A DNA stretch of 64,000 nt from Buttiauxella agrestis (GTDB taxonomy: Bacteria > Pseudomonadota > Gammaproteobacteria > Enterobacterales > Enterobacteriaceae), in contig NZ_UIGI01000002.1 in assembly GCF_900446255.1 (NCBI RefSeq), forward strand, positions 186,001 to 250,000, in the 5' to 3' direction. The notes below the pieces were generated by a model that made no database searches, was not told the origin of the DNA, and was given only the letters and a program-made list of their open reading frames with translations. Position numbers and translations under genes: made by a program. Shown here piece by piece: positions 1,941-35,637 of the stretch (positions are counted from its first letter, which is position 1; each line of letters opens with the position of its first letter).

Positions 1941-2459
1941 ATGGAACACAGGCTTACAGGGCTTCAGCGCTTCAGTCCAGCAGTCAGCATTATCCAGATA
2001 GACAGTTATATCCACTGGATGGCGCATGGGGCGCTTAGCTTTGATGCGGAGTATCAACGTGAATACGTTTGGGGGCATGCCGAGCAACAGGCATTTCTGG
2101 CAACAGCGGCATCAGGTTTCCCGCTTGGACATGTGGCTCTTTGCCGCTTGCCCGACTGGGGCAACATTGATGGACCGTATATTGAAGTCGTGGACGGCAA
2201 GCAGCGGCTTGTGACTATGAAGCTGTTCGTGAATGACCAGATAGCTTTCTGTCATCAGGGTAAAGAATTCTATTGGTCTGATCTTAACCGCACTGAACGG
2301 CGGATTTTCACTAATGCCTCGCTCCCGGCAATCAAGCTGGATGACGCGAACTTAAGACAGAGGCTGGAGTTTTTCTACACAACAAATTTTACAGGCGTTC
2401 CTCAGAGCTGTGACCACAAACGCCGCGTGAGTGAAATGCTGCATGCAGCAGGAAAGTAA
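1941..2459 (+). CDS. DUF262-type (ParB/Srx-fold) protein, 172 aa
   Basis: Start chosen at ATG 1941 after AGGGGAGAG; the same frame is open further upstream without a good ribosome site. Residues about 33-42 (FDAEYQREYVW) and about 80-95 (EVVDGKQRLVTMKLF) are the two signature blocks of DUF262 domains, the N-terminal nucleotide-hydrolysing half of GmrS-type enzymes, where the DGQR-like segment is the active site. The C-terminal DUF1524 nuclease half is absent, so it is a stand-alone, short version. Its role on the plasmid is unknown; phage or DNA-modification defence is a guess from the family. Its stop codon lies inside an AAAGTAACTTT palindrome (2453-2463). Confidence 0.7.
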   Translation: MEHRLTGLQRFSPAVSIIQIDSYIHWMAHGALSFDAEYQREYVWGHAEQQAFLATAASGFPLGHVALCRLPDWGNIDGPYIEVVDGKQRLVTMKLFVNDQIAFCHQGKEFYWSDLNRTERRIFTNASLPAIKLDDANLRQRLEFFYTTNFTGVPQSCDHKRRVSEMLHAAGK

Positions 2460-2463
2460 CTTT
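2453..2463. repeat. AAAGTWACTTT palindrome, first of twelve
   Basis: Copies: 2453-2463, 6991-7001, 7403-7413, 8506-8516, 11466-11476, 18488-18498, 18946-18956, 19384-19394, 21986-21996, 27412-27422, 30187-30197 and 35271-35281. Oriented as GTAAC, the extended consensus is AAAAGTAACTTTYT. Half are intergenic or at gene ends, the rest inside genes. None seen after 35281. Likely a dispersed protein-binding site on the plasmid backbone. Confidence 0.8.
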
Positions 2464-2509
2464 TCGAATACTTCTGACCACACCGCAACAAATTATGGAG
2501 AGTTATTCA

Positions 2510-2673
2510 TGAAAGCATACGGGAAGTCATATTCTGTACAAGGTTGTACTTGCGCACTGTGCCGCTCACGTGGATACAGAAAAGGTAATGGCTACGGTGA
2601 TGCTCTTCGTGCCAGTAAACACCGCGCCAGGCAGCAGGCTAAACGGGAAATCAGTCGGCTTCTTCCTGTGTAA
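2510..2673 (+). CDS. small basic Cys-containing protein, 54 aa
   Basis: ATG 2510 is preceded by GGAGAG. The product starts MKAYGKSYSVQGC, has a C-x-C-x2-C cluster at residues 13-18 that could hold a metal, and ends in an Arg/Lys-rich helix. It looks like a small nucleic-acid-binding protein. I know of no assigned role. Confidence 0.55.
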
Positions 2674-2851
2674 GATGTTGGCGCAGGGGGTGATAACGAT
2701 GCGGGGATATTGTTTCTGTTTAAATCCGACCAGGCTGAAGTGATAAAACTTATATGACAGCTTATATCCCTCCGTTACAGCGCGACGATATCGACCGTAG
2801 ACGTTTTTCACGGTCACCCAAAAATACCTCGTTTCAGTGAGGCCAAGTATC

Positions 2852-3532
2852 ATGACAATTGAAAACGCATCATTCATCGAGCGAGTACTCCAATACTCAC
2901 GCGACCTGAAAAAAGCCGCCGAGCATTACATGGCTATCGCCAATAAAGACGTGCCTTATTACGATAAGGCTATGGCCCGCCAGCCGTTCGATAAACTTTT
3001 GGCACCGTCCGACCTTACGTTAATGATTGATTTGCTCCACGCTCAAAATACAGAGCTGGAGCAGTACCGTAGCGCGGCTAAAACAGCTGTAGCGTGGACT
3101 GACTCAGAAGAGTTAAGGGATGCGGGTAATAGTGGGTGCGGGTATTTATTCCCTATTGGCGGTACTGCGAATAAGTTTGCTGACCCACGCCGCCAGGTAA
3201 TGCTCTATCAAGGGCCGAGCATTCCCACGCCGGAGCTTCCAATCTATCAACTCAGGGATTGGCACTGGTACGATGCTGAAAAGCGCATTTACGAAGAAGT
3301 CACCGAGGCTGGGGGCGAGGGCCGCATTGTTTACGCTGCACCACCAGCGCCACCGCCAGCCCTTCCTGTTTATCAATATCGTATCCGCAACAGCTATAAC
3401 GGGCAGGCTTCAGCCTGGCAGACCATCAACCGTGATCAGGTAGATTTTGTGCTGAAGGCCCAACCGATTAACGCAGAGTTTCAAATAATCAGTGCGGCTG
3501 AATACGCCGCCGAGGAAAAGCAAAGTGACTGA
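2852..3532 (+). CDS. phage-type hypothetical protein, 226 aa
   Basis: ATG 2852 has GTGAGG about 8 bases upstream; the frame also opens at GTG 2837. The N-terminal third is helical. After a Pro-rich linker (YAAPPAPPPALPVY, about residues 163-176) the last 50 residues form a small domain. The Y-A-x-P-P linker is typical of modular proteins encoded in the early regions of lambdoid phages. It overlaps the next gene by 8 bases, and the three genes 2852-3934 look like a transplanted phage cassette. Function unknown. Confidence 0.6.
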   Translation: MTIENASFIERVLQYSRDLKKAAEHYMAIANKDVPYYDKAMARQPFDKLLAPSDLTLMIDLLHAQNTELEQYRSAAKTAVAWTDSEELRDAGNSGCGYLFPIGGTANKFADPRRQVMLYQGPSIPTPELPIYQLRDWHWYDAEKRIYEEVTEAGGEGRIVYAAPPAPPPALPVYQYRIRNSYNGQASAWQTINRDQVDFVLKAQPINAEFQIISAAEYAAEEKQSD

Positions 3533-6834: not shown

Positions 6835-7032
6835 ATGTGCGCTACTAAAAATATCAGCCGACAAAATGGTGACTCACTATTTGATGCCATTTTCTCAGAC
6901 CTGACGTCATTCCGGGAAATTGAATATCGCCGGATGGTCCAGAAAGAAAATGTCACCATGCCTGGTTGCGGTCGAACTATTACTGAAGAAAAAGTAACTT
7001 TCGATAAAGCGGGGCAGTTGAATGCAGCGTAA
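6835..7032 (+). CDS. hypothetical protein, 65 aa
   Basis: ATG preceded by GGCGAGG. Small hydrophilic protein. Residues about 52-56 read EKVTF, encoded by an AAAGTAACTTT palindrome (6991-7001). Overlaps the next gene by 11 bases. Confidence 0.5.
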   Translation: MCATKNISRQNGDSLFDAIFSDLTSFREIEYRRMVQKENVTMPGCGRTITEEKVTFDKAGQLNAA

Positions 7033-7386: not shown

Positions 7387-7527
7387 ATGGCTGTAAATCA
7401 GGAAAGTTACTTTTTACCCACAAAATCGGACTGGACAGATGCATGCGGGAAAATGATATGTCGGGGTTTTAATGTAATCCCTGGGGGCGGCGGCAGTTTT
7501 ATAACGGTGGTTCGAATCCGTAGTTAG
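7387..7527 (+). CDS. possible small ORF, 46 aa
   Basis: An ATG-to-TAG frame in the 335-base gap between 7345 and 7680 encodes a 46-residue peptide with a GGGGS stretch. The ribosome site is poor. It contains an AAAGTTACTTT palindrome (7403-7413). It may be non-coding; the rest of the gap has nothing clear. Confidence 0.3.
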   Translation: MAVNQESYFLPTKSDWTDACGKMICRGFNVIPGGGGSFITVVRIRS

Positions 7528-8318: not shown

Positions 8319-9053
8319 TTAACGGTACTTAGTTTTTTTTCCTCCCAGATAATTCAGTATCCGACCATATATTTTTACAAACATAAACGTCACCAGATAC
8401 GTAAGTTTCATGCTCTGGTTAAAGCGCTTATTCAGGCTATTAATGTGAGTGAGATCCGTTATCAGCCCAGGAGTTAAGCGCCTGCTGATAATTTTATTCC
8501 TGATAAAAGTAACTTTCTCAGGATGGATGATACTCATGTCCTGTCTACGCTTTATGTTGTCCTCCATCTCCTTCATGCCCATGCATAGCCACTCAGGTTT
8601 ATCGCCCTTGAATTTGCAGGGGCCATTGATCAGTACAACGTTTACACACTCAAGCTCAGGGTCATCCATGATGTGCCTGATGCCATGTATATGGGCTTCG
8701 TTCTGACGGAAGGGATTGTTCAGTTGGAGTCTATTTTTGTGTCTAAATTTCAACCATTTCTTTTCATTTATATCCCCGATAAGTGTGCCAACATAGTTCT
8801 TTTCCTCAATGACATAGAGGCCGTGAGTTGTCACCAGCACATGATCAATTTGAGTGGTTCGTCCACGAGGCATAAGCACGGTGACATCGCTAAAAAGACC
8901 CGCCTTGTCATCAGGAAGAAGTCGGGCAATCATCCCGGCCGTTTTCCGCTCCTTCATATCGTTTTTAATCATTTCCAGTAGACAGAAAATGACTGCGATA
9001 AGTAGGGCTACACAGACGCACAGTGCGATATTGAACAACATCCCTGTATCCAT
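8319..9053 (-). CDS. membrane-anchored NERD-domain protein, 244 aa
   Basis: An N-terminal membrane helix (about residues 6-27) is followed by a NERD (nuclease-related) domain at about residues 45-150. Visible signatures are TQIDHVLVTTHGLYVIEEKNY, where Asp, Glu and Lys match the nuclease-like core, and NPFRQNEAHIHGI. NERD proteins are thought to process DNA; here it would be held at the inner membrane. It is last in the minus-strand transfer operon, 4 bases after the S49 peptidase gene. EKVTF in its sequence is encoded by the palindrome at 8506-8516. Confidence 0.75.
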   Translation of the reverse strand: MDTGMLFNIALCVCVALLIAVIFCLLEMIKNDMKERKTAGMIARLLPDDKAGLFSDVTVLMPRGRTTQIDHVLVTTHGLYVIEEKNYVGTLIGDINEKKWLKFRHKNRLQLNNPFRQNEAHIHGIRHIMDDPELECVNVVLINGPCKFKGDKPEWLCMGMKEMEDNIKRRQDMSIIHPEKVTFIRNKIISRRLTPGLITDLTHINSLNKRFNQSMKLTYLVTFMFVKIYGRILNYLGGKKTKYR

Positions 9054-10897: not shown

Positions 10898-11989
10898 TCA
10901 CGTCCTCCACTCTCTCAAAAGTTCTTTATGCTCAGAATGAGTTCGGTATTGATTTTTCCATAGGGTAGGAATTCCGACCTGCCACTGATATCGCTTAGGG
11001 ATAATATTATTTACTAGCGTATAAGAGGCCATCTGGCGGTGCTCATCACTAAGCCAGTGCAGTTGACCCGGGTCAGGTGTATACACTGGCGAACTGAACC
11101 TGTAGGCCAGTCTGGAAAAATCAATAAAGTTAAAACTCCATGGCGTCCAGATCCGATACTCGTCTTTCACTCCTGTACTGTATACCGGGCAAGAGAGGAG
11201 GGTGTCGGTAAACTCTTCAACCATTTTCTGGCAGATGCCCGGGCTGTTGATATCAGCTGTATCTTTATCAATGTAAGGAAAAACTGCTTTATCAATAATC
11301 CGGTTAAACGCGCTGACGTACAAACAGGTCTGGTCGGGTAAAAATTCAATGCTGGAGAGCAAGCTCTTTTTTAACTCACTCAGGAAGGGTGAATCTTCAA
11401 AAGTAATTATCTGCTCATAATCGGTGCCGAGATGTTGTGGCTGCTCAATACGCTTTACCCCACTGAAAGTTACTTTTTCAGGAATTTCAATAAATGGTGA
11501 CACTGATTTAGTCAGGTCTATAAAAGAGGGAAGCAGGTAGCCACCCAGAATCAGGTTGTTTTTTTGGACATGCTCTTTACGGTGTTCACATGGATCAAAG
11601 TCGATATTGAATGACACAACACTCTTGTCATTCGCTTCGGCCACTTCCTTGATCCATTCTTCAGATGGCCCATTGGTGACGGACCAATAGCAGTACTCTC
11701 GGTCGCCATATTTGTCTTTTAAAACGAGTTCGCCTTTTAACAGGAATAATTCAGAAAGTGTTTCTGATGCGCTGCGCAATAAACTTATGTCTCGCTCGAT
11801 AAAGAAACGTGAAGACAGTTCCTGAACCTTTTTCTCTATTGTAGCTATACGGGACACGGCTACGCCAGAGGTGACATGCTGCAAACCCAGAGACTGGAAG
11901 CGTCTGTTAACCAGGCTCTTAAAACGTCTGGCGGGTTGGCATAATTGAAATAACTGCGAACGTGTCAAAACAACTTTGTCTGAATTCAC
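10898..11989 (-). CDS. transfer-operon protein of unknown function, 363 aa
   Basis: Soluble protein, no signal peptide or membrane helix. The N-terminus LTRSQLFQLCQPARRFKSLVNRRFQSLGL is basic. The start overlaps the end of the coupling-protein gene by 4 bases, so the two are translated together, suggesting a job at the coupling protein or relaxosome. EKVTF near the middle is encoded by the palindrome at 11466-11476. I do not recognise a family. Confidence 0.6.
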   Translation of the reverse strand: MNSDKVVLTRSQLFQLCQPARRFKSLVNRRFQSLGLQHVTSGVAVSRIATIEKKVQELSSRFFIERDISLLRSASETLSELFLLKGELVLKDKYGDREYCYWSVTNGPSEEWIKEVAEANDKSVVSFNIDFDPCEHRKEHVQKNNLILGGYLLPSFIDLTKSVSPFIEIPEKVTFSGVKRIEQPQHLGTDYEQIITFEDSPFLSELKKSLLSSIEFLPDQTCLYVSAFNRIIDKAVFPYIDKDTADINSPGICQKMVEEFTDTLLSCPVYSTGVKDEYRIWTPWSFNFIDFSRLAYRFSSPVYTPDPGQLHWLSDEHRQMASYTLVNNIIPKRYQWQVGIPTLWKNQYRTHSEHKELLREWRT

Positions 11990-14070
11990 TGTATTGTCCT
12001 TATGTACTTATCTATTTTTATTTTATTAATGTTTTCTCGCACGGTGAGTTTGTTCACTGGCGTAAAAATCATATCGGTCAGAGTTGTATTTCGTTTCATC
12101 TGGTTCTTAGGGATAGCTATAGGAATTTGTCCTACAATTTTCCGTCCATCCTGGAGGCGAGCCACGATATGATGCATAGGCATCTGACCGAGTAATTCTT
12201 TTGGAATCGTCTCTTCTCTGCTGGTGGACTTCCTTTCCGCCATAGCGCCAGTGAAGTTATTATGAGGCAAAGTTGTCTCGGCGCCGGTCGTATAAGTCAC
12301 CTGATTTGAGCTTATAGAGCTTTTGCCAAAGTTATCGATGATAATTGTTTGGGTTGGGTTGTCGTTTACCCGAAGACTTATGTAGTTGTTACATAGACCG
12401 GTGATGCGATTCGCTGTTTCCTGGTCGGCAGCTGAAACAAAATCTGAGATTGTCTGAGTACAAACAAATAGAGCAATTTTTGCGGCTCGGCCCTGGGCGA
12501 GCAAACTGATCATTGCATTGTTGATAGCGGCATGGGCTTCGTCGATAAAGATACTGATTCGGGAATGCTGTGACATGTCACCGTCCCCCGTGTTGTATCT
12601 GCGGCCAGCACAAGCAGTCAGATCAGAAGTAATGAGCTGGGAAACAGCTTTTGCTGTATCTGGATTCGATAAGCCATCCAGAGAAATATATAAAACCCCT
12701 CCAGTGGTAAACATACCCTCACTGTTTATAACGTCTCTGTTACTGGCGGGGTATTCAGAGGGCGATAACAACTCATCAAGTGGGCTTTCGGTCAATTTAG
12801 CGAACAATGGCATTAATGACGCAGTCATTTTCGCCATATGCTCAGGTTCGCTGGTTGAATAACGAATAAGCTCACTGACTACGTCGATGCCATGGACTTT
12901 TTCAGACCCTTCATAATTCATAAAGTGGGCGATGTACCACTCATATAAACGCTTGAAGCGTTCTTTAAACGCGTCAGTACTTGAATAACGTACGATATCG
13001 ACCCATTTGTCCTGACCGTAGTGTGCTGCATACATGCATTCCATCGCCTGTATAGCCAGGTTCTGAAGGGATTGAGGGCTCTGCATGTTTTTATAAATAC
13101 TTTTTATTGAGGGTTTTTTGTTAGTTAAGCGGATTCCAGCGATAATTGATGAAACGAGAGATTCAGCAAACCGTACAAACGGGTTCTCTTCTCCAGGCAC
13201 AATAATTAAGCTTAAAATTCGTGTCGTCAGGTCCGAAACGTTGACAAAACTGTTGCACACATCAATTGCACAAGAGGTTGATGGTTGGCCCGGGTGAAAC
13301 TGGAAAAATGGCTTCCCCAGTTCCTTACATTCCAGCTCGAGTGCCTGCCGCCAGTCAGCATCGTTCTTGGGGTCAATAACAACAATCACATGACCAAGAT
13401 GGAGCATTGACGAACTGAGCAACCTCAACAGAATGGTTTTACCTGTCCCAACGTTGCCGGTAATCAAGGTATGCCCATACCAGTTGTCTTCAGTCACGAA
13501 TAAAGGTAGACGATCATCGACAGCAAATATGGCATTGTCGCCACCCATCTTCCTTGCCAGTGAGTCAAAATGCCGGGTAATCGGGTTCAAAACGAAAGGT
13601 AATTTTATTTCCCGTTTGTCGCTTGAAAGGTTGATGATTTGATAAACCCTGTCCCCATGCTCTGACCCCCATTCATAACCATCACATAGATAGGTCATTC
13701 TTGTAGGAAGCGATTTGTTTTCCTTGTGTGCGACTTCCTGAGCGATGCGAAAGTCTCTGTCATTAGAGAAAACGTCACTGTTGTTGATAGAGCGGAGATC
13801 ATTGAGGGAGATAAATAAAAATTTTCTCTTAAACACGCGCCAGTGGGCATGGAAATACGGGGCCGCAGTCCAGACTCTGTAAATACACAGAAGGAAAAGC
13901 AACAGTGCTGAGTATTTCACGACCGGAGCCATTTGCGTACCATCTGCCTCATAGCCGACATACACCATGAATATGGGAGCGATAAACAAAACAATGGCAC
14001 TTCGGTATTCCAGTAATGGACGATACAGATTTTCCTGAGCATGCAGATTGGTTCTTTTTGGGAGTGCCAT
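11986..14070 (-). CDS. traD: VirD4-family conjugative coupling protein, 694 aa
   Basis: Two N-terminal membrane helices (about residues 24-40 and 51-68) precede a RecA-like ATPase. Walker A is GNVGTGKT at 205-212; Walker B is ISIFIDEAHAA. The chain ends with Lys-rich segments. Coupling proteins form a hexameric inner-membrane pump that brings the relaxase-bound strand to the type IV secretion channel. The gene begins one base after the relaxase gene ends. In IncHI plasmids the equivalent is called traG, in SXT/IncC and F traD. It looks complete. Confidence 0.9.
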   Translation of the reverse strand: MALPKRTNLHAQENLYRPLLEYRSAIVLFIAPIFMVYVGYEADGTQMAPVVKYSALLLFLLCIYRVWTAAPYFHAHWRVFKRKFLFISLNDLRSINNSDVFSNDRDFRIAQEVAHKENKSLPTRMTYLCDGYEWGSEHGDRVYQIINLSSDKREIKLPFVLNPITRHFDSLARKMGGDNAIFAVDDRLPLFVTEDNWYGHTLITGNVGTGKTILLRLLSSSMLHLGHVIVVIDPKNDADWRQALELECKELGKPFFQFHPGQPSTSCAIDVCNSFVNVSDLTTRILSLIIVPGEENPFVRFAESLVSSIIAGIRLTNKKPSIKSIYKNMQSPQSLQNLAIQAMECMYAAHYGQDKWVDIVRYSSTDAFKERFKRLYEWYIAHFMNYEGSEKVHGIDVVSELIRYSTSEPEHMAKMTASLMPLFAKLTESPLDELLSPSEYPASNRDVINSEGMFTTGGVLYISLDGLSNPDTAKAVSQLITSDLTACAGRRYNTGDGDMSQHSRISIFIDEAHAAINNAMISLLAQGRAAKIALFVCTQTISDFVSAADQETANRITGLCNNYISLRVNDNPTQTIIIDNFGKSSISSNQVTYTTGAETTLPHNNFTGAMAERKSTSREETIPKELLGQMPMHHIVARLQDGRKIVGQIPIAIPKNQMKRNTTLTDMIFTPVNKLTVRENINKIKIDKYIRTIQ

Positions 14071-16977
14071 TTATAGCTCCTGACTTTTCTCGATTTCGCT
14101 AATAATGTGTTCAAAGTGAAGGTCCGAGCGTTCCCCGGCCACAATTAATTCGGCAATGTTTATCTTGCTGCAAATCATAGTGACGGTTTTCTTTACCTTA
14201 ACTTTGCAGGTTGGAAATTTGTTGAGGAGTTCAATGAGGGCTTTGTTATCGATTCGTCTGGTCCCAACATAAAGAGCACCTCCAAAAACGATAAGGGAGT
14301 GATAACTCACCACTGACTGTTTGGTCTGCTTCTTCGACGTGACTAGTGCCATAAACTCACCAGCAAGGTTTTCATAGTCCACTTCAAGGGGGGTTGAGTC
14401 AGACGTTATTTCGACCTGAACAGTGGAGGTTACATTCTGGGTAATGGGCTTATCAGTGGAATTCAGCGTCTTGCCACTATTTTTCTGCGTGTCGGGGGAC
14501 GCTGCCTGCTCAGTTTGGTCTGGGTTCTTAGCCTGTTGCAATTGACCTGAATTTGTCACCAGCTCAGAGCTGCCTTTTCCCTGTTCTGTGAAGCCGAAAA
14601 GCGAATTTGATTCGGAGATCCGAGAAAAGATGCTGGTTAACTGCGGTTGGACTTGCAGTTTTTTAATCGGGGCGGTGACAACAGGCTCAACGGTCTGTGG
14701 TAGAGCTGGTGGTGTGAGTGTCTTATCTGGGGCAACTTGTTCGAGAACAATGACATCCTCGCCCTGATGCACATGCGAGTCCTCAATATCAGTTTCAGAA
14801 TATGAGTTCACAACCTGTTCTATGCTGGTATTTATGGCATCTACGGAGTCATCATGTGGCGTTTGATGCAGCTCAGACAAGACTGATTGCTCCAGCTCCA
14901 TGTACACATCATCTAAACATGACTCAAGATTCAGGCTTTCGTCCCAAAGATCCGGACCTTCAGATAAATAGGCTGGCGGTGAATCGTCATCCATCCCCGG
15001 ATAATTTTCCGGAGGAAGTGGTAGAGGCTGATGGTCCGTTAAGTTTGGTTCTTCAGCCTCTTCATGACGTTCACTTAGTTCTACGGTCTGATAGAGGCCG
15101 GAATCAAGGAGAGACTTCAGTTTAGTGGTCCTGAGGTTTCGTCCACTCATCTGATATCCAGCAAAACTATCACCCAGCGCAATAATTGCGATATTGTTCT
15201 CGTCCCTGATGACCCACTGCCCATCAAACGAACCTTCCCGGAAGGTCTGCTGGAACAGCCCGGACTCGGCTAGATGGCTCTCTTCAGTTCCCGGGGCAAG
15301 TAAGATGATTTCACTTACGACTGCATATGGCACACCGTCCACCAGGCAGATGGCTGATTCGGGTATTTTGGTGGTAGTAAACAATTCTGTCAGAGCGTCA
15401 ATTACGGACGTTTGCTGGACTAGTGCTTCATCTGGTTTAACTTGTGAATCATCAGTAATGTCCGGATACGGGGTTTTCTCTTCGTTATCCTCACGGGGTT
15501 GATCCACAGCAACTGAAGAGTCAGTGTTTGATTCTGCTGAATCCGATTTAACATTAACTGTCTCTGGTGAGATAACTTTTACAGAATCCGCTTTCTTTTG
15601 TGCAGCAGTTTCAAAACTGTCATTTACCGTAATGACCTCTTTGCGTCCAGGCATTGGGCGCAAGAATTCGGATACATTACGGAATTCATCAATAAGAATA
15701 AGGTCCCTGTTCTCATTAACCGAAAACAACCCCGGCACTGAGTCAGGAATAAAATAGGAGTCGAAAATTAGCCCAATCCATTTTACCTTTAATAGATTAT
15801 AGAAGGGGACTTCGGCAATACCCGTGGCAAACATTTGTTGGACATCACTCTCCGTGTACTTTCCTGGCATAAAGTAATGAACAATTCGGGTGTCACTGTA
15901 CGGTTCGATATAGCCGCGACGAATTAAAGCTTCAGTTAATGCCAGTCGTCCAACTTCGTCCTGCGGGAAGTTAAATTTGATTTCCTGAAACTCTTTAAGA
16001 ATAAAATCAAGGAATGTTTGTTCGTTGAAGTAGACCTCACCATTGACGATGATGATGTGCATTGATTTTGACTGATAGTCGTTAATACCCAAATCTTTAA
16101 ATTTATGTTTAACAGCGCTCATCGCTCGAGTAGCAGCATCAGTTGAGCGCAGACCAATAATCGGGTCGCGTATAACATTAAGGTCAGTCCCGGTGGAGTA
16201 ATAATCCGCTCTTCTCACACATCGGGACAAAAAGTCATTAGCATTATTATATGAATTTAATGATGAGAGCATTCTGTCATAAATACGTTCTCTTGAGACT
16301 ACTCCAAGAAAACGTAGGCAGGTGGGATTCAGTATTCTTTCAAGGAATACACTGGACCAGATATTGTGTTGATTAACCCTACGGACTCGCCAGTGAATTT
16401 CGTAGCTTTTAACGTTCTCGCTATTGCACCAGTCCAGTAAACTTTGTGCGGTTGGATTCCATGTGGTTGTCTTTAATGTGTCACTGCTCACTACATCAAC
16501 ATCATAAATTTTGCCTGCATCATGAACAAGGCCACATATAAATGCGGCATACAGGTATGCCTTTTTACGCTGAACCTCCTCATCCTGGTATCCAATGGGT
16601 GCCAGCTCTGAATCATAAGCCTGGATTAAAGATAAAAGGCCCACATCCAGACTGTGGGAGAAAAGCCCCCCAATACCATTGTGGTGATGATTCTCGGACG
16701 CAGGAAGTAAATGAACCCAGCGAATAAATTCGATCAGTGGTTTTGTAATGAGATTTGTAAAAGTAAATGCATCATCGCTGATGTCGTTATCGTCGATAGC
16801 AATACGCATAGAAATTTTTTTAAGTTTGTCGACATGCAATGACAAAATTGATTGCTCATTGAAGACAGTAATACCGCGAGGTTTAGACGGATATTCGACG
16901 AATTTTAAAACCTCTTCATTGGGGCATTTTGGGATCTTGTATTTCTCCGTGCCGTTTACATGAGAATAGGGCGACAA
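14071..16977 (-). CDS. traI: MOBH-type conjugative relaxase TraI, 968 aa
   Basis: Residues about 90-200 carry the MOBH signature: HHHN-x-GGLF-SHS-DV, the metal-binding three-His motif, and GLVHDAGK, the HD motif. This is the TraI_2 domain of IncHI, IncA/C and SXT relaxases, which nick oriT and pilot the strand. A second conserved C-terminal domain (about 880-965) follows a long acidic, Ser/Thr/Gln-rich linker (about 470-850). Length is usual for the family. It is adjacent to the coupling-protein gene, and a 43-codon ORF overlaps its start. Confidence 0.9.
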   Translation of the reverse strand: MSPYSHVNGTEKYKIPKCPNEEVLKFVEYPSKPRGITVFNEQSILSLHVDKLKKISMRIAIDDNDISDDAFTFTNLITKPLIEFIRWVHLLPASENHHHNGIGGLFSHSLDVGLLSLIQAYDSELAPIGYQDEEVQRKKAYLYAAFICGLVHDAGKIYDVDVVSSDTLKTTTWNPTAQSLLDWCNSENVKSYEIHWRVRRVNQHNIWSSVFLERILNPTCLRFLGVVSRERIYDRMLSSLNSYNNANDFLSRCVRRADYYSTGTDLNVIRDPIIGLRSTDAATRAMSAVKHKFKDLGINDYQSKSMHIIIVNGEVYFNEQTFLDFILKEFQEIKFNFPQDEVGRLALTEALIRRGYIEPYSDTRIVHYFMPGKYTESDVQQMFATGIAEVPFYNLLKVKWIGLIFDSYFIPDSVPGLFSVNENRDLILIDEFRNVSEFLRPMPGRKEVITVNDSFETAAQKKADSVKVISPETVNVKSDSAESNTDSSVAVDQPREDNEEKTPYPDITDDSQVKPDEALVQQTSVIDALTELFTTTKIPESAICLVDGVPYAVVSEIILLAPGTEESHLAESGLFQQTFREGSFDGQWVIRDENNIAIIALGDSFAGYQMSGRNLRTTKLKSLLDSGLYQTVELSERHEEAEEPNLTDHQPLPLPPENYPGMDDDSPPAYLSEGPDLWDESLNLESCLDDVYMELEQSVLSELHQTPHDDSVDAINTSIEQVVNSYSETDIEDSHVHQGEDVIVLEQVAPDKTLTPPALPQTVEPVVTAPIKKLQVQPQLTSIFSRISESNSLFGFTEQGKGSSELVTNSGQLQQAKNPDQTEQAASPDTQKNSGKTLNSTDKPITQNVTSTVQVEITSDSTPLEVDYENLAGEFMALVTSKKQTKQSVVSYHSLIVFGGALYVGTRRIDNKALIELLNKFPTCKVKVKKTVTMICSKINIAELIVAGERSDLHFEHIISEIEKSQEL

Positions 16978-17087: not shown

Positions 17088-17099
17088 GTTAATTTATCC

Positions 17100-21967: not shown

Positions 21968-23366
21968 ACGCAGAGTCTGGAAACAAAAGTTACTTTTCAC
22001 GTTTGTTGGTTTTGCTCTTACCGTGAGCAGCAACGTCTTCGCAGACAACTCCATGCGTAATATTTTTAACGGAATGATGGCAAAAACTGATCCGCGTAGC
22101 TTTGAATCAGCGACCCGTGTAGGTGTTGTTGGCGGTTCATTTTCTTACCGACAGGCAAATGTAAACACCAATCTGGTTTCTATGTCCTTCCCTAAAGCCG
22201 CAGTGGGATGTAATGGGGTTGATGTTTTTCTTGGCTCCTTCAGCATGATTAATGGAGACCAGCTAGTACAAGTTGCCAGGGGGATTGCCCAGGGTGCCGC
22301 AATTTATGCTTTCAACGTAGCTGTGTCAGCCATTTGTGCTGACTGTGCGGCCACCATTAACGACATACAGAATAAACTTCAGGCACTCAATAAATTCGCC
22401 AAAGACAGTTGTAACGCGACCTACTCATTTCTTGCTGAAAACCAGGGTACACCACAGACATTTGCAAACAGTATCAGTACCGGTCCGGGGGCTGTGCTCA
22501 ACACGATAAACGGCCTGATTCCTGATTTCGGTTCTTCTATGACCAGTGCTCCCGAAAAAATTACTGCCCAGGCGAAAACGAAAGATCCCGAAGAATTTGC
22601 TGAAAAGTTTAGTGGAAACATTTTCTATATGGGATTCATGGAAATTGATAAAGGCACCATGGATATCGGAGGGGTCACTGAACTATCAGGCTATCGGCTC
22701 GCTGAGCAGTTAATGTCACTGGTCGGTACGTTGATTATTAACTGGGATAGTAAAGGTGAAAAGGCAGGGTTTGAAGTAAGGCCCTCCACGATGACGGTTA
22801 CTGATTACATTTTCGGACCGGCGACTCCCGGGAATATCAAGATGTTGAAGTGTGCCCCGGCACCTGATCCATCAAGCGCAAGAAAAGCCCAATGTCTGAC
22901 GATGAAAGAGGTGACTGATGGCAACTTTATTGGGCTTAAGCAAGAGATTGAAAAGCTTCTGCTTAATATCCAGACAAAAGTTCACAGTAACCAGACACTC
23001 TCAGAAGAAGATTACAGAATGCTTGGGTATATCGGACTTTCGAACATAGTTCCGTCATTCCAGACGTTCTCTATGGCTGAGGGTTACAGCTACATACAGG
23101 ACATCAGTACTTATTCAGCCACAATGCTCGTTATCAATATGCTTCGGCAGGTATCGGCAAAGATGACGACTATGAAGCTCCCCAGCGATGCTTTGAGTTC
23201 TCATCAGGATGATATTCGCCGCTATGCAGATAAGCTTGATGAGCAGATAAAAGCAGCTTATGAAGTGTCCCGAGCTCAGACAGTAGATTCTAAAAGGGTT
23301 GTCGATTCGTGGGATGACAAGCTCTTAAAATCTATGTTGTGGCTCGACAGTGGTCGCAGAGGGTGA
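21957..23366 (+). CDS. traH: TraH-type conjugative pilus assembly protein, 469 aa
   Basis: ATG 21957 follows GGGAGG inside the end of traF. Signal peptide at about residues 10-32 ends in NVFA. The protein has the family pattern of conserved cysteines (CNGVDVF and CADCAATIN) and a long C-terminal coiled region. TraH is an outer-periplasmic part of F-type systems needed for pilus formation. The codons KLLFT near the start are written by the palindrome at 21986-21996. Confidence 0.85.
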   Translation: MVSKRRVWKQKLLFTFVGFALTVSSNVFADNSMRNIFNGMMAKTDPRSFESATRVGVVGGSFSYRQANVNTNLVSMSFPKAAVGCNGVDVFLGSFSMINGDQLVQVARGIAQGAAIYAFNVAVSAICADCAATINDIQNKLQALNKFAKDSCNATYSFLAENQGTPQTFANSISTGPGAVLNTINGLIPDFGSSMTSAPEKITAQAKTKDPEEFAEKFSGNIFYMGFMEIDKGTMDIGGVTELSGYRLAEQLMSLVGTLIINWDSKGEKAGFEVRPSTMTVTDYIFGPATPGNIKMLKCAPAPDPSSARKAQCLTMKEVTDGNFIGLKQEIEKLLLNIQTKVHSNQTLSEEDYRMLGYIGLSNIVPSFQTFSMAEGYSYIQDISTYSATMLVINMLRQVSAKMTTMKLPSDALSSHQDDIRRYADKLDEQIKAAYEVSRAQTVDSKRVVDSWDDKLLKSMLWLDSGRRG

Positions 23367-23374
23367 GGTGAACG

Positions 23375-26300
23375 ATGGACTATAACATTTATACTCTTGG
23401 CGATATCGATTTTGTATGGTCGGCCTTTAACGGCATTGCTCTTATCTTTTCCCAGCATACAGGTGTGCGAGAGTTCATGACAACGGCCGCAGTTCTGGCT
23501 GCGGTGAACCTGTTTTACAAATCCTGGCTTTGGGTTCTCAATCCGCTCAAGAATGAAGTGCCGATCTTCAGCTGGCTTCTTGGCCTGGTGTTATTTTCTA
23601 TAGCTATAACCCGGGTTGATGTGACCATTGAATCTGTGAAAACAGGAGAGGTCCGTGCTGTTGATGGGGTGCCTATCTTCATCGCCGCATCAGCAACGCT
23701 GACGACTAATCTGTCGCAGGGATTACTGCGTGATTACAAAATAGCCTTCGACCCGTTATCCCCCATCGATATGAATGCATCATCACTTAATGATGACATT
23801 ACCCTTGGCCCGATGGTTAAGTTTGTTAAATTCATGCAGTGGGGGGGCGACTCACAGGGCTATTGCAGCCAGTTTCCTTCTCCGGATGCCTCTATTGGGA
23901 CACTCAATCTGTGTAAGACTATTCAATCCATTGCAATGGACTGTCTGAAGTCATCCCAGAACTCGACGGCGACTATTGTCGGTAAAGAAAACATCTTTAA
24001 CGATATCTACAGCAGCGATCTTGCAGAAAGTCTCGCCGCTATTTCTTCGGCTATTAGTACCGGCAACAAAAATGCCAGCGCCCGCCTTGTCGGTACGAAC
24101 GGGTCCAAAACTAAGCCTTGCGCTGACGTTTGGTCTGACGTTTTAAGCATCAAGGACCGACCGGAAACCGTGAGCCTGATGCAAACTATTGCCCAGGTAA
24201 ATGGGATCATGACCCCGGATGATGTCACCGGGGCTAACAGTGGCTTAGATTTTACCGCAGCCATGAAAGCTGCAAACGGCATTTACAGTCAAGCCATTGG
24301 TTCACATGACGTAATGATGGGGAACTTTGTTCTTAACAGCCTCAGTGTCGGTGAGCAACTATACAAAAGTGGTTTGGGCAGCGCGGCAGGTATGCAACTT
24401 TTCGAGGCTCAGGTTAAGCGTACCAACAGTATGGTTTCACAGGGGCAACTCTGGTTACAGTTGTCCGGTGCCGCGATTTCCTTCCTGGAGATGTTCTCAT
24501 ACATGGTGGCTCCCTTCGCATTGCTGATGTTGATAGCACTCGGGGGCAACGGGGTCGGTGCGGCCGCTAAATATCTGCAACTTATTATTTTCGTGAACAT
24601 GTGGCCGATCACCGCCGTTCTGGTAAACGCGTATATCAAAAAGGTACTTACTGCTGACCTTGATACATGGTCAACTTTAAACAGTCAGAACAGTGTTGTC
24701 ACCTGGATGGGACAACCTGGATTGTATGAAACCTACAGCTCCTATCTTTCCGTTGCGTCAGGTCTATACGCTCTCATACCGGTACTGACACTTTTCCTGA
24801 TGACGCAAAGTATTCATCCGATGATGAATGCCACTAAAGGGGTTACTCCTGATGCACCTGTCAATAACGGGCATCTGACACCACAGGTCTGGTCTTCCCC
24901 AGATGCCGGTAAATCGTCATTCGGGGATGTGCAGCAAGTGGCCGATGTTTCAACGGGCAGAGGCATGGGAACCAGCGGTGGATTCAGTAGTTATACCGCA
25001 CCGCGTGTTGGCACCTGGGCTACCGGCGAGGCTTCGCAACAGGCGCAGGGGATGAGTGCCACTCAATCGCATTCACAGTTGAAATCTGATACCCAGTCGT
25101 TCAACCAGTCAATGAGTAATTTGCGTGAGCAAATGGCCTCTGGTAGCACAAACAGCCAAAGTTCACAGACTATGGCAAACACCATGAGTATGGTGGAAAA
25201 GCTGTCATCTCAGGTCGCAAACGCTGTTAGCAAAGACACTTCTCTCGGTCAGGAGCAAGTTAAAGGAATGGTATCGCAAATAGCGCTCCAGGGAGCGCTC
25301 TCTGCGGGTACGGATGGGATGAAATCTATGCTTGGCTCTTTGGTCTCCGGCAAGGGGACGATTAATAGCTTGCTCCAGTCATCAGATACAAATCAGCAAA
25401 AACTGGGGCAATCTCTCAAGGACGCATTTACCAATACACTGTCTAACAACAGCGGGCTTGATGAGGGGATCACTAAAGGGATGTCCAGCCTCAAATCTTC
25501 AGGTTACCTGGAGAGCAACTCGATGAAAGAAGCCTTTGGCTCGGTAATGCAGTCTGGACAAAGTCTGATTAACAGCGCGACGGCTGCGGTTTCCACTGAA
25601 GGGAAAATGTCCAGTTCCAGCGGAATGGATTACAAACAGACAGTTAATCTCGATAACGTTTCAGACTCACTGAAGCAGAGTAAATTTACCGATGATGCAG
25701 TGCGCGATTACGCAAGTAAGAGTGGACTGGATGCCAATGCCTTTATGGATAAATTTAATTCGCATTTCGATACCTTTAGTAAGAGTAACACGATGGGGGA
25801 TGATCAGAACCGCCGTGATGCACTGGTATCAACCATGCGTGATTTTGGTAATGACCTGATGAAGTTTGATGCAACTAGCGGGGAAACCCCGGCACAAAGT
25901 CAACAGGATTTCCGTCAGTCACAGGCTTTACTGCAAAATCTTGTAACGGATTTTGGGGCAAACGAGCAGATGTTAAGCCCGGCAATTCGTCAGATGGCTG
26001 CAATGGCCGGAGATGCAACCCCTGCTAACTTTATTGCGAATACGCAAGGACAACAATCACCAGTCAATACTTCCAATGTACCTACTCAGGGGCAAGTCCA
26101 GTCCGGTGGTCAGGCAATATCTGGAAATGTTGAAAATGGGATGGCTGGACAACGAGCTGAAGCATCACAGACTCCTCAAGGAACCGTGAATGGGGTGAGT
26201 GCGGCAGGACTGACACGTGAATCTGGGTCCGCCGCCGTTACTGGGGTTCATAGTGAAAATCAGAAGGCGGTAATGTCACCGTCTGAAAGGGCAGCATTAA

Positions 26301-27355
26301 GCCAGGCCGACGAAAAGGGCGTACCGATGACTACGGCGAAAGTAGACAAGCTTGCTGCTGAAAACCAGAATCTTAGTGGTAAACAAGCAGTATTCACGGA
26401 AGCAGGTAATGCTGCATTTGGCGCTACCCCTCCACAAATAGTCACCGGGCCTGTCAGAGAAACAATGGCCGCTCTGAAAGTTGGCAACGATTTGTTTGGT
26501 GATGCAGACAAGGAAGTTAATCGTATTCAAAATTCTGACATGACTCCTGAGCAAAAACGAACTGAATTGGGGGTTCGGGCTGCGGCCAACTTACACCTGG
26601 CAAATAATCAGGATGGTTCAGAACGTAATGAGTCCAGGCATAACGCTGAAGTTTATCGGAACGCGCTTAAAGATGAAGGCGTCAACTGGAGCATGGATCA
26701 GATTCAAAATATGTCACGTCAAGCTTCGGGGTATAACAAGGGAGCCACGAGCCTGGACGATGTGGTTAATGCCAATCTCGGCACCCCATCTGTGTCTTCT
26801 CAAGCCAAAACGGTTCTGCCTGGTTCAGCCCCGGTTGCAACTGATATCGACAGGAATGCCGCAGATACACTCATCAGGAACACGCAAAACTCGGGAGGGG
26901 TTGTCAATACTGCTGGGGCTGCGCTAATGACGGGTAAGCAATTCGTTGCAAACACAATGAATGATGCGGGGTTAGGAGGTAGTTTACGTGCATTTGAAGG
27001 TTGGGGGATGATCAATACACCACAATCCACCATAACCGAGAACCTTCAGGCCGGAGCTATTCCTAATGACCTTGGTGGAAAAGTGTCGGCAATGATGATA
27101 GTGAATGATGCAGTACAAACCAATGAAGGAAATCCGGCTCTGGCAAGTGGAGCACTGGATCGGCATGAATTGCAGCTTTCCACTATCAACCAGGCAATTT
27201 ATCAACAAATGAGTGATTCTAAGGAGTTTGGGCCTGAAAAAGCAGAAGAATTCAGGAATTTTGCTCAGTCAAATTTGAATGATTCAAGCCTGAGCTACGG
27301 TGAGCGTTCGGACCGGTATAATAACTGGGTCAACGAAAACCGCTCTTCAAAGTAA
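23375..27355 (+). CDS. traG: TraG-type mating-pair stabilisation protein, 1326 aa
   Basis: Follows traH by 8 bases. The N-terminal 480 residues carry membrane segments (near 35-52, 64-82, 365-400, 405-425 and 455-475) typical of the TraG_N domain. The remaining about 850 residues are a periplasmic, Ser/Gln/Asn-rich, low-complexity body. In F the C-terminal part contacts the recipient and mediates entry-exclusion recognition. Length is larger than F TraG (about 940) and similar to IncHI/SXT versions. It ends the operon; a strong terminator follows. Confidence 0.85.
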   Translation: MDYNIYTLGDIDFVWSAFNGIALIFSQHTGVREFMTTAAVLAAVNLFYKSWLWVLNPLKNEVPIFSWLLGLVLFSIAITRVDVTIESVKTGEVRAVDGVPIFIAASATLTTNLSQGLLRDYKIAFDPLSPIDMNASSLNDDITLGPMVKFVKFMQWGGDSQGYCSQFPSPDASIGTLNLCKTIQSIAMDCLKSSQNSTATIVGKENIFNDIYSSDLAESLAAISSAISTGNKNASARLVGTNGSKTKPCADVWSDVLSIKDRPETVSLMQTIAQVNGIMTPDDVTGANSGLDFTAAMKAANGIYSQAIGSHDVMMGNFVLNSLSVGEQLYKSGLGSAAGMQLFEAQVKRTNSMVSQGQLWLQLSGAAISFLEMFSYMVAPFALLMLIALGGNGVGAAAKYLQLIIFVNMWPITAVLVNAYIKKVLTADLDTWSTLNSQNSVVTWMGQPGLYETYSSYLSVASGLYALIPVLTLFLMTQSIHPMMNATKGVTPDAPVNNGHLTPQVWSSPDAGKSSFGDVQQVADVSTGRGMGTSGGFSSYTAPRVGTWATGEASQQAQGMSATQSHSQLKSDTQSFNQSMSNLREQMASGSTNSQSSQTMANTMSMVEKLSSQVANAVSKDTSLGQEQVKGMVSQIALQGALSAGTDGMKSMLGSLVSGKGTINSLLQSSDTNQQKLGQSLKDAFTNTLSNNSGLDEGITKGMSSLKSSGYLESNSMKEAFGSVMQSGQSLINSATAAVSTEGKMSSSSGMDYKQTVNLDNVSDSLKQSKFTDDAVRDYASKSGLDANAFMDKFNSHFDTFSKSNTMGDDQNRRDALVSTMRDFGNDLMKFDATSGETPAQSQQDFRQSQALLQNLVTDFGANEQMLSPAIRQMAAMAGDATPANFIANTQGQQSPVNTSNVPTQGQVQSGGQAISGNVENGMAGQRAEASQTPQGTVNGVSAAGLTRESGSAAVTGVHSENQKAVMSPSERAALSQADEKGVPMTTAKVDKLAAENQNLSGKQAVFTEAGNAAFGATPPQIVTGPVRETMAALKVGNDLFGDADKEVNRIQNSDMTPEQKRTELGVRAAANLHLANNQDGSERNESRHNAEVYRNALKDEGVNWSMDQIQNMSRQASGYNKGATSLDDVVNANLGTPSVSSQAKTVLPGSAPVATDIDRNAADTLIRNTQNSGGVVNTAGAALMTGKQFVANTMNDAGLGGSLRAFEGWGMINTPQSTITENLQAGAIPNDLGGKVSAMMIVNDAVQTNEGNPALASGALDRHELQLSTINQAIYQQMSDSKEFGPEKAEEFRNFAQSNLNDSSLSYGERSDRYNNWVNENRSSK

Positions 27356-27372
27356 AAGTTAAGACAGAAACT

Positions 27373-27405
27373 AAAGGCTGTGGCACGTGCTACAGCCTTT
27401 TTTTT
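27373..27405 (+). terminator. rho-independent terminator after traG
   Basis: AAAGGCTGT at 27373-27381 pairs with ACAGCCTTT at 27392-27400, with an inner GCACGTGC palindrome and a run of T. It ends the traF-traH-traG operon. Confidence 0.85.
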
Positions 27406-27496
27406 AAAAAAAAAGTTACTTTTCTCATCCAGCTGTCGCTCGGGAGACGAATTCTACGGACTGCACCAGCCGGGTAACGTACTGACGACGAGACCC

Positions 27497-27679
27497 ATGC
27501 GTATTGCTGTATATCGAATGGTCAAACACCGGGGGCGATTACTGATTCACGGCGACATTACACAAGGGGCAGGGCAGGTGTTCTTGAGTGCTGAATCTTC
27601 TGATCCAGCACTCAAGACGATCAGAGTGATTTCCGGGTCGGATTGCCGAAAAGAAAAATACTTACTGAATCTTATTTAG
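27497..27679 (+). CDS. possible small protein, 60 aa
   Basis: An ATG-started frame in the gap after the traG terminator. It overlaps the end of the convergent transglycosylase gene by 8 bases and lacks a good ribosome site. The frame is also open upstream to a GTG inside the terminator, which is not a credible start. May not be real. Confidence 0.25.
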   Translation: MRIAVYRMVKHRGRLLIHGDITQGAGQVFLSAESSDPALKTIRVISGSDCRKEKYLLNLI

Positions 27680-28217
27680 CATCCACTTCAGATGGTATCG
27701 CCATGTTGTTGGCGATATGCCCGTTGTACTGAGGAGCGGGGTGTTGCGTCCACTGGTAAAGCTCATGCATTCCATTTCTTTGCTGGATTCGACGGTTGTA
27801 CCTTTCCATAAATTTGAAAATGTACCGCGCTCTGACTTTGGGGGTCTTACTGTTGTAATCGCCAATACCTTCGAAAACATTGCCTTGCCGGTCGACTATT
27901 TTTCTCCACAACCACCAGGTGCCCACCCAGAAACTTGCACAAGCATCATACGCCAGCACTTTCCAGGTAACCGTGGGGAAATTACTTTTTATTTCGGGCA
28001 GATTTGAAGAGTTAATTTGCATCGGGCCGATATCGTAAGAACCGTTTGTGTTCCTGACGAACGAGCCGACTTTACCGCCTTCATTATCGAATAGCGTAAA
28101 TACGAGTTCTGAATCTATCCCGAAGTACCGTGACGCATCATTAACACACTGGTTTCTGATTTCCGTTGGAACAGGGATCGGCATTGGTCTCACATCATCA
28201 GCTGGTGGTATGAACAT
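27672..28217 (-). CDS. lytic transglycosylase (SLT domain), 181 aa
   Basis: Goose-lysozyme/SLT fold: catalytic Glu46 in LFDNEGGKVG, the YDIGPMQINS motif and the C-terminal VRARYIFKFMERY. Such enzymes open the peptidoglycan to let a secretion channel through. No signal peptide is visible at the chosen ATG (GGAG upstream), which is unusual. It is the only minus-strand gene among the plus-strand transfer genes here. Confidence 0.85.
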   Translation of the reverse strand: MFIPPADDVRPMPIPVPTEIRNQCVNDASRYFGIDSELVFTLFDNEGGKVGSFVRNTNGSYDIGPMQINSSNLPEIKSNFPTVTWKVLAYDACASFWVGTWWLWRKIVDRQGNVFEGIGDYNSKTPKVRARYIFKFMERYNRRIQQRNGMHELYQWTQHPAPQYNGHIANNMAIPSEVDAK

Positions 28218-29998: not shown

Positions 29999-30602
29999 TT
30001 CCAGGGGACCACGGCCACATAATTTCCCGACCGTAACGGACTGTCGATTTTACTCAAAACAGCCGCGACCATGGCACTGTATGCCTGTTGGTCAGATTGA
30101 ACCGGCGCATTACTCTGCATGTCAATTTTAACAATGTCTTTCCCCGGCGTTCCTTTCGTCTGAATCCGGACTGTCATACTGCGGAAAAAGTAACTTTTTT
30201 GCTGCTCGTTGACTCCAATGAACCCTTCAACCGGTTGATAGGAATAATTCGTATGGGTTTTACCATTCGCTGTTTTGCTGGTGGACTTGTTATCAACTAC
30301 ATACCCAATTACACCTGTGACTGGTACTGACTCAATAATGACATTCTCGCGGCGGTCTGAATAATTAAACAATAACGTAAACATGCTATCGGGCGCATTC
30401 ACTCTGAAGCCCCCTTTAATTAAACCATCACTAATCATGCTCGCCAGATATCGGGATTGAATCGAATCATCAGGAGGAATTACCGCAACTGTTTTATTGG
30501 CAACGGGGCGCTCAAGCAGATCATACGCATCAACCTGAGTTGAAAAGTGATAACCGCATCCAGATAAAAAAAGACTGAGCTAATTAATAACGTGCGTTTC
30601 AT
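29995..30602 (-). pseudogene. envelope lipoprotein gene with an N-terminal frameshift
   Basis: From ATG 30602 the frame MKRTLLI is right for a lipoprotein signal, but the continuation (lipobox LFLSGCGYHF) is in another frame after about 30580. One missing base near AGCTCAG would restore it; the downstream frame then runs intact to 29995, about 190 residues in all. The body has strands such as VAVVPWN and no cysteines after the lipobox. Either the gene is dead, or starts internally at ATG 30438, or the base is a sequencing error. KSYFF is written by the palindrome at 30187-30197. Confidence 0.6.
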
Positions 30603-34722: not shown

Positions 34723-34778
34723 TTGTTTATTTAATCCTGTCATGAACCACGCATTCTATGGAATTAAAGGAGAGACGT

Positions 34779-34800
34779 AAAAAAGACCGCTGGCGCGGCC
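34779..34800 (-). terminator. terminator for the minus-strand gene at 34801
   Basis: Read on the minus strand, GGCCGC and GCGGTC arms close around a 4-base loop and six T follow. It abuts the stop codon of the 34801-35061 gene. Confidence 0.7.
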
Positions 34801-35061
34801 TCAGTTGGAGTTTTCAGGAGGGCGGCCAGGAGGATTGTAATGGCGATCTATAAAACTAGCCCATTCTGTGCGAGTCATTCCTCCTCGTTCATTGATTTTC
34901 TTAAACCAGTCAGGGTTTTCATATTTTGAGGCGTTTTTGAAAATCCCAAATTTATCTGATGTTAGAGGAACAATACGAACATAATTGTCCCAGCCCCATA
35001 CGAGCACTGCAACAGCAATCAGCAATAAAAGAATCAGAACTACGTCCAACAAATATCCCAT
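34801..35061 (-). CDS. small membrane protein, 86 aa
   Basis: One N-terminal membrane helix (residues 4-24, VVLILLLLIAVAVLVWGW) and a soluble C-terminal tail with Trp-Phe-Lys-Lys. A terminator follows directly. No family recognised. Confidence 0.6.
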   Translation of the reverse strand: MGYLLDVVLILLLLIAVAVLVWGWDNYVRIVPLTSDKFGIFKNASKYENPDWFKKINERGGMTRTEWASFIDRHYNPPGRPPENSN

Positions 35062-35127
35062 TTTCTCCGACCTTAGAAATTTCGAGATTATGACTCATTG
35101 TATCAAGCCAGACCTCGCGTTACCAGG

Positions 35128-35637
35128 TTAGCGTATTGCGTATTCATAAGGTGTATTTCCCGCTAGTGCAGCAAAAATATCGTATTTCATTTTGATCTTA
35201 ATCGCCAGTGACTTTGCTTCACGATAGGCACGTTTACCTTTAGTGCTGTCTGGTTCGGACCTGAACGTCAAAAGTAACTTTTCTATTTTGAGTGTATCTG
35301 GATTGGCTATTAACTGGTTGGAAGTCAGTTCGCCAGTTTTTAGCGCAATACGTTCATTTGCTTTCCTGACTCTTGAAGCCAGGTCAAAACCCCGGGCACG
35401 TGCTCTGTATTGACGCTGATAGTCGGCCAGTGCAGCTGCGTGACGCATTCTGTACCGTCTCTTAGCCGCCAGCACCACCGGCTTGTTGTTATCCTGGTAG
35501 GATTTGTTTTCTTCAGCAATGCATTTTCGACATCGTGACTTATGGCCATCTTTGGTTTTCCGGTCAAGACCAAAATCACTGAGAGGGCAGATCCGCTCGC
35601 ATTTCCGGCATAGCTTTGACTGCAACGGTTCGCTCAT
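35128..35637 (-). CDS. zinc-finger protein of phage endonuclease-VII-like type, 169 aa
   Basis: The N-terminus has C-x2-C pairs at residues 9-12 and 36-39 with the spacing LSDFGLDRKTKDGHKSRCRKC, a pattern shared by many phage HNH/endonuclease-VII-like proteins. The rest is basic and helical; I do not see a complete HNH active site. KIEKLLL is written by the last AAAGTAACTTT palindrome (35271-35281). It is the last backbone-like gene before the insertion-sequence island. Confidence 0.6.
   Translation of the reverse strand: MSEPLQSKLCRKCERICPLSDFGLDRKTKDGHKSRCRKCIAEENKSYQDNNKPVVLAAKRRYRMRHAAALADYQRQYRARARGFDLASRVRKANERIALKTGELTSNQLIANPDTLKIEKLLLTFRSEPDSTKGKRAYREAKSLAIKIKMKYDIFAALAGNTPYEYAIR

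Follow-up and report, generated by a model that had tools for sequence, protein, structure and literature searches.

A dispersed palindrome of IncHI-type plasmid backbones and an orphan ParB-like protein as its candidate reader

What reads a short palindrome that is scattered through one part of a plasmid sequence, inside genes and between them, and is absent from the rest? The question is raised by a stretch of 64,000 nucleotides from Buttiauxella agrestis (contig NZ_UIGI01000002.1, positions 186,001 to 250,000; hereafter the window), in which the palindrome AAAGTWACTTT recurs. Dispersed AAAGTWACTTT is a general feature of IncHI-type plasmids (IncHI1, IncHI2, and the Klebsiella IncHI type), which are large, conjugative, and major carriers of multidrug resistance. 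Judging from sequence comparison, we give roughly half our credence to the proposal that AAAGTWACTTT is the recognition site of an orphan ParB-like protein of these plasmids, here called P3, and that it serves plasmid-wide loading of this protein and silencing or compaction of the plasmid.

An exact scan of the whole window found 12 copies at 2453-35281 and none in the remaining 28.7 kb, identical to the count in the sequence-only reading that had first proposed the palindrome as a mark of the plasmid backbone. The earlier estimate of fewer than 0.1 copies expected by chance agrees with 100 dinucleotide shuffles of the window (mean 0.07, maximum 2). AAAGTWACTTT is strict, because a search allowing one mismatch yields 14 places in total, only two beyond the exact copies (1.70 expected). 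The copies are spaced 0.4 to 7 kb apart and, as had also been described, lie both in genes and between them: according to the table of predicted open reading frames (ORFs), 6 of the 12 are wholly within ORFs, in all three frames, and 6 are outside ORFs or across an ORF end. The copies are listed here; no strand is assigned to any of them.

2453..2463, strand., copy 1, overlapping the end of ORF 1650-2459, which has a GmrSD N-terminal match
6991..7001, strand., copy 2, 21 bp ahead of ORF 7022-7345
7403..7413, strand., copy 3, 58 bp past ORF 7022-7345
8506..8516, strand., copy 4, within a NERD-domain gene
11466..11476, strand., copy 5, within ORF 10898-11989 (363 amino acids, with an R27 homologue)
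18488..18498, strand., copy 6, between mobI and trhR; a copy is present in the equivalent gap of R27
18946..18956, strand., copy 7, 71 bp before trhR; the R27 counterpart is 76 bp before its trhR
19384..19394, strand., copy 8, within trhR at GEKVT codons; same codons in R27
21986..21996, strand., copy 9, near the start of trhH; kept in R27 and IncHI2
27412..27422, strand., copy 10, in a convergent intergenic region past traG
30187..30197, strand., copy 11, within a homologue of an R27 lipoprotein gene
35271..35281, strand., copy 12 (the last), within ORF 35128-35637 and close to the cargo-border transposase

No Pfam match was found for ORF 35128-35637. The neighborhood of copies 6-10 is a single block:

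11986..28217, strand., IncHI-type transfer backbone (traD, mobH, mobI, trhR, trhY, traF, trhH, traG, transglycosylase)

The genes for TraD, MobH, MobI, TrhR, TrhY, TraF, TrhH, and TraG follow the gene order of R27, with amino-acid identities of 42-76%, and much of the first 35 kb of the window is, by homology, IncHI-type plasmid backbone. In the plasmid collection, the window is most similar at the DNA level to IncHI-type plasmids (one of them typed), with approximately 74% identity over 1.6 kb, and the window therefore comes from a diverged lineage. A search of window positions 1-36000 at the gathering threshold returned no RNA families.

Copies were counted in whole plasmid records, with the reversed pattern as control:

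IncHI2 NZ_CP133279: 48 copies (reversed 0)
IncHI1 NZ_CP039559: 48 copies (reversed 1)
NZ_CP073055: 44 copies (reversed 1)
NZ_CP109608 and NZ_MZ726785 (Klebsiella and Raoultella IncHI-type): 79 and 77 copies (reversed 2 each)
R27: 42 copies (reversed 1)
CP052539: 76 copies (reversed 1)

All seven whole IncHI-type records thus carry 42-79 copies each. Nine non-IncHI plasmids (IncC, IncT, Pseudomonas, Providencia pCHS4.1-3, Vibrio, IncF/IncR Klebsiella, Aeromonas, Citrobacter freundii NZ_CP135623, and Pantoea) have 0 or 1 copy each, and the restriction to IncHI-type plasmids holds among the records counted. In an unbiased count of 11-mers, AAAGTWACTTT and its complement rank first in all four complete IncHI-type plasmids scanned and in window positions 1-35400; with this rank and the shuffle mean, an effect of chance or composition is rejected. 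The sequence-only reading had proposed counts in related plasmids, shuffled controls, and the host chromosome as checks; applied with genomes other than that of the host as chromosomal background, they do not refute its claim. Among 392 genomes of one family (0.2 to 6.4 Mb; a sample centered on a genome chosen through P3), four have 44-50 copies and the other 388 have 0-18 genome-wide, and chromosomal background is rejected as the cause. In many of these genomes AAAGTWACTTT falls below the reversed pattern, for example 2 versus 8 in G086.

Comparison between plasmids shows that the copies are maintained. Between R27 and IncHI2, which are 75% identical, 27 of the 42 R27 copies can be aligned and 20 of these 27 are kept, compared with 4.3% of neighboring 11-mers. 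Between two Klebsiella-type plasmids, 56 of 77 copies are alignable and 52 of the 56 are kept (neighboring 11-mers, 11.9%), and between a Klebsiella-type plasmid and R27 the figures are 3 of 77 and 2 of 3. The aligned R27 copies comprise 20 genic copies, of which 13 are kept, and 7 intergenic copies, all kept. Within the genic copies, central letter excluded, 55 of 58 codon third positions are identical, versus 577 of 1322 in the surrounding sequence. The conservation of third positions and of the 11-mer indicates that selection acts on the DNA, as the sequence-only reading had argued, and purifying selection is thereby shown to keep AAAGTWACTTT copies even inside genes. In the window itself, only the trhH copy of the 12 is alignable at the DNA level, and it is kept; two further copies have R27 counterparts by gene position, copy 7 ahead of trhR and copy 8 at the GEKVT codons within that gene.

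The 291 exact copies from five plasmids define the site more closely. The flanks add one position per side (A in 70% and G in 20% before the palindrome, the complement after it), giving RAAAGTWACTTTY. In the same five plasmids, a central C or G occurs 35 times versus 291 with A or T; C replaces T at position 5, or the mirror change occurs, 26 times, and the remaining single-letter variants are rarer. In R27, 21 of the 42 copies are intergenic (8.6 expected; p = 2e-5), three of them in convergent gaps. With the other 21 copies in genes, placement at promoters only is not supported. Mean spacing is 2.9 to 5.7 kb per copy across plasmids, and regular spacing is not supported either, since spacing varies less than at random in R27 (fraction 0.02) but in none of the four other plasmids.

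The copies are probably where a plasmid-wide DNA-binding protein related to ParB docks, and the candidate is one gene of R27:

R27 92336-93541: P3, an orphan ParB-like protein of 401 amino acids, annotated as hypothetical

R27 has three ParB-like genes besides that for the partition ParB, at 45191-46348, 40890-41966, and 92336-93541 (P3), and no ParA is annotated beside any of the three. Upstream of P3 there are two copies in R27, two in IncHI2, and five and six in two Klebsiella-type plasmids, where these clusters are the densest of each plasmid. Among the 79 R27 genes with best tblastn hits in all three comparison plasmids (the hits not being reciprocal), P3 is alone in having two or more copies in the 400 bp ahead of it in each of the four plasmids. 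Under uniform placement, the upstream counts of P3 have P values of 0.003 in R27 and 0.002 in IncHI2, and were reached in 0 of 20,000 placements for each Klebsiella plasmid; gene and window sizes were picked post hoc, and these values are uncorrected for the number of genes. Six P3 loci in the genome collection, which represent three lineages, are each preceded by 2-5 copies in 900 bp. Among the 392 genomes, a full-length P3 match occurs in the four site-rich ones and in no other. An order-level sample contains a P3 match in 3 of 394 genomes, one of them full-length, and no P3 relative was found in the viral collection, although a scan of viral contigs for paired sites yielded 30 stretches. 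Record W02 has an equally spaced pair of copies; the P3 gene of W02 was not located. The copies in front of P3 suggest that it regulates its own expression.

P3 of R27 contains a ParB helix-turn-helix (HTH) domain (PF17762, above cut-off). A profile of eight relatives (three P3 sequences, three paralogue sequences, one IncT protein, and one IncC protein) matches ParB (1.9e-13), Noc (3.4e-12), and also Spo0J structures over the N-terminal domain and the HTH, and P3 is shown by this homology to be a member of the ParB/Noc superfamily. In all eight relatives, G99 and R102 of the predicted cytidine triphosphate (CTP) motif GACRIR/GHCRHR (GxxR) are invariant. Against the NCBIfam noc model, P3 scores 14 bits, where the cut-off is 315. 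The stretch that joins the HTH to the C-terminal region is poorly conserved, with many proline, glycine, and acidic residues.

Precedents for a ParB-family protein with dispersed sites exist. Noc of Bacillus belongs to the ParB family, reads dispersed palindromes, and lacks a ParA partner; it is chromosomal and acts on cell division at the membrane. P3 resembles it in family and in the dispersed palindromes proposed as its sites, and the profile match to Noc structures agrees with the likeness. The operators OB of KorB, about a dozen, are dispersed over RK2, some of them upstream of KorB's own gene. The AAAGTWACTTT copies are similarly dispersed, some of them upstream of the gene of the presumed regulator P3; they differ from OB in site sequence, in number (42-79), and in that no ParA is annotated beside R27 P3, and no KorA partner was identified for P3. 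KorB of RK2 (IncP), a plasmid-borne ParB-family protein, silences at long range as a CTP clamp and, like P3, combines a ParB N-terminal domain, a GxxRxR motif, a DNA-binding domain, a linker, and a C-terminal domain (PMC11790492). The same source gives the KorB motif as GARRYR, of GxxRxR shape with an alanine in place of the ParB glutamate, and reports that promoters as far as 1.5 kb away are within its reach (PMC11790492). The low-conservation stretch of P3 recalls the KorB linker.

By analogy with these proteins, a P3 dimer would use its HTH to bind one palindrome, each subunit taking one half-site, and would then probably bind CTP, close into a clamp, and slide onto adjacent DNA as do ParB, Noc, and KorB. 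Sites every 3-6 kb would load P3 across much of the backbone: given the reach of KorB and the mean spacing of the copies, a clamp protein could cover a large part of it. Copies in convergent gaps and in genes fit loading sites better than simple operators. The copies upstream of the P3 gene would give negative autoregulation, and the most likely outcome would be plasmid-wide silencing or compaction that sets the backbone apart from cargo; at trhR and the transfer origin, P3 may have a special part to play. Binding, CTP use, sliding, and silencing by P3 are all steps that we infer.

Several observations weigh against P3 as the reader. First, at least one copy also lies in the 400 bp upstream of mobI, trhR, and an Ig-like gene in each of the four plasmids, a P3 paralogue in Klebsiella plasmids has two, and pairs of copies no more than 800 bp apart are not unusual in R27, W02, and IncHI2 (R27 has six such starts, and random placement nearly always produces one). 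Second, co-occurrence cannot single out P3, as every IncHI backbone protein co-occurs with AAAGTWACTTT. Third, three IncHI-type plasmids without full-length P3 (OW968459, NZ_CP070903, and NZ_MW025965) keep 50, 24, and 33 copies; P3 is therefore at least temporarily dispensable, and these plasmids fit either recent P3 loss or another reader. They would be useful as natural P3 deletions. The window, too, contains no P3 gene. Finally, the Klebsiella P3 alone gives no Pfam ParB match, the profile comparison with KorB (chain 8qa8) is not significant (E 0.29), and the HxR of the P3 recognition helix also occurs in the IncC homologue, whose plasmid has zero AAAGTWACTTT. HxR was consequently dropped as a mark of specificity.

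It is possible, though on present evidence unlikely, that another DNA-binding protein encoded by the plasmid reads the site: one of the paralogues at R27 45191-46348 and 40890-41966, a nucleoid protein, or a Tus-like or other protein. Site-rich plasmids have many backbone genes in common, and the P3-less plasmids retain other ParB-like genes together with their copies. The Klebsiella counterpart of the first paralogue (45191-46348) is the gene with two copies upstream, and it is also the best Klebsiella match of the second (40890-41966). However, neither paralogue has a copy within 400 bp upstream in R27 or IncHI2, and the recognition-helix region of the first differs between R27 and Klebsiella while the site is unchanged; P3 differs there too, except for HxR.

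The copies would seem a natural candidate for dispersed parS sites of the plasmid's own ParABS system, an explanation we consider improbable. IncHI-type plasmids encode ParA and ParB, and IncC ParB binds 14 dispersed palindromes, genic as well as intergenic, on a conjugative plasmid of MOBH/MPF_F type (PMC10954446), as AAAGTWACTTT is dispersed here. A blind palindrome scan, used as a positive control, ranked the known IncC ParB site first, with 14 copies. The IncC core TTTCACATGTGAAA is absent (0 copies) from R27, W01, W02, W05, W11, and the window, just as AAAGTWACTTT is from the IncC record; unlike P3, IncC ParB is encoded in an operon, parAB053. Upstream of parA there is instead a clustered array, of CGATTAAGGGG in R27 and IncHI2 and of ACAACNNNGTTGT in the two Klebsiella-type plasmids. 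The cluster near parA is thus a different repeat, and AAAGTWACTTT is dispersed. C. freundii NZ_CP135623 has a ParA 90% and a ParB 73% identical to those of R27 with the same CCCCTTAATCG array directly ahead of its parA, yet only one AAAGTWACTTT copy in 292 kb, and a Providencia plasmid whose ParB is 52% identical has zero copies. Related ParAB and array without dispersed copies argue that the partition ParB is not the reader, and AAAGTWACTTT, by this comparison, does not behave as the site of a ParA-linked ParB. The AAAGTWACTTT system fails the tested features of both ParABS and IncC sites.

Two side observations concern these repeats. Relatives of R27 parAB (L047 25652-27785) and the upstream array occur together on NZ_CP135623, as if they were one moved module, and Klebsiella IncHI-type plasmids have an array of the palindrome CCCCCGNNNNCGGGGG with a period of approximately 61 bp (CP052539 30071-31225; NZ_MZ726785 134231-134964).

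A reader encoded by the host, of the SlmA or MatP type, is quite improbable. Chromosomal dispersed-site systems of this type exist, and IncHI-type plasmids live in related hosts, but the 388 low-copy family genomes are often below the reversed-pattern control, and the nine non-IncHI plasmids carry next to no copies. A methylation or restriction mark, or base composition, is very improbable: R27 encodes methyltransferases and a central W is common in methylation and restriction sites, but the shuffles and the rarity of one-letter variants outside the center stand against it.

In phage N15, which the sequence-only reading had named as a parallel, a SopB-type partition protein reads a small number of dispersed inverted repeats. 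Among the roles that the sequence-only reading had listed, the centromere (ParABS) is therefore disfavored, whereas the site of an organizing protein or of a plasmid-wide regulator is favored, through the still unproven P3. It knew of no described system with this palindrome. Comparable systems are described for IncC ParB (PMC10954446) and KorB (PMC11790492), but no report of AAAGTWACTTT itself was found. Its letters occur in 14 open-access papers, none of which concerns plasmids to judge by the titles, and its ambiguous forms occur in none; most subscription papers and all bioRxiv preprints lie outside this search, and an earlier description is possible.

The earlier reading also held that the palindrome belongs to the backbone. 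Its presence in common across IncHI1, IncHI2, and Klebsiella IncHI-type plasmids bears this out, and there is no copy in the stretches of at least 97% identity common to IncHI1 and IncHI2 records (10, 11, and 13 kb, with overlapping contents). The longest copy-free gaps of R27 (13 kb), IncHI2 (34 kb), W05 (60 kb), and W02 (18 kb) have backbone fractions of 0.01-0.05. An exception is W11, whose longest gap has a backbone fraction of 0.29, and shorter copy-free gaps with 0.41 to 0.76 backbone exist in R27, W02, W05, and W11. The rule that copies mark backbone and not cargo is supported as strong yet not absolute.

In the window, the last copy lies 0.6 kb ahead of a transposase ORF (35850-37253) 73.5% identical to an R27 ISNCY transposase. 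Beyond it lie two more transposases, one of IS66 and one of rve type, a LysR-type regulator, a chaperone-usher fimbrial operon, and GH18-like proteins, and the predicted content past the last copy is consistent with cargo. The fimbrial operon and the two GH18-like proteins occupy 48832-61035; one GH18-like protein is just below the Pfam cut-off, and the other has PKD and CBM_5_12 domains.

A broader proposal is that IncHI-type plasmids distinguish self from cargo: a CTP clamp formed by an orphan ParB-like protein would load at the dozens of strictly conserved palindromes, coat the backbone, and silence or compact it, leaving inserts unmarked and acting apart from partition; an IncT sibling with AAAAC half-sites would be possible. 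We regard this as tentative and more doubtful than not. The IncT palindrome AAAACWGTTTT has 15 dispersed copies in each of NZ_CP098042 and NC_003905 (Rts1), and in the one IncT plasmid checked its center is always A or T and never C or G. It has the same 5-W-5 design as AAAGTWACTTT, with a different half-site and fewer copies. In NZ_CP098042, one copy lies approximately 230 bp upstream of a distant ParB-like gene. The encoded protein is 19% identical to R27 P3, and the link of AAAACWGTTTT to this gene is weak because the P3 profile has no match on that plasmid at 1e-8.

The window also contains, at 18558-18749 between mobI and trhR, an inverted-repeat array of six TGTGGCACTTT copies, three per orientation; the mobI-trhR gap of R27 has an array too, but of different sequence. 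This array region is probably the transfer origin. Copies of AAAGTWACTTT flank it on both sides, which suggests a link with transfer.

The presence of 42-79 copies per plasmid under strong selection implies a plasmid-wide function, and how a very large plasmid organizes or silences itself as one unit becomes testable. AAAGTWACTTT is a simple sequence mark that tells IncHI backbone from acquired cargo, and the AAAGT and AAAAC half-sites may be a natural test of specificity change in the ParB family.

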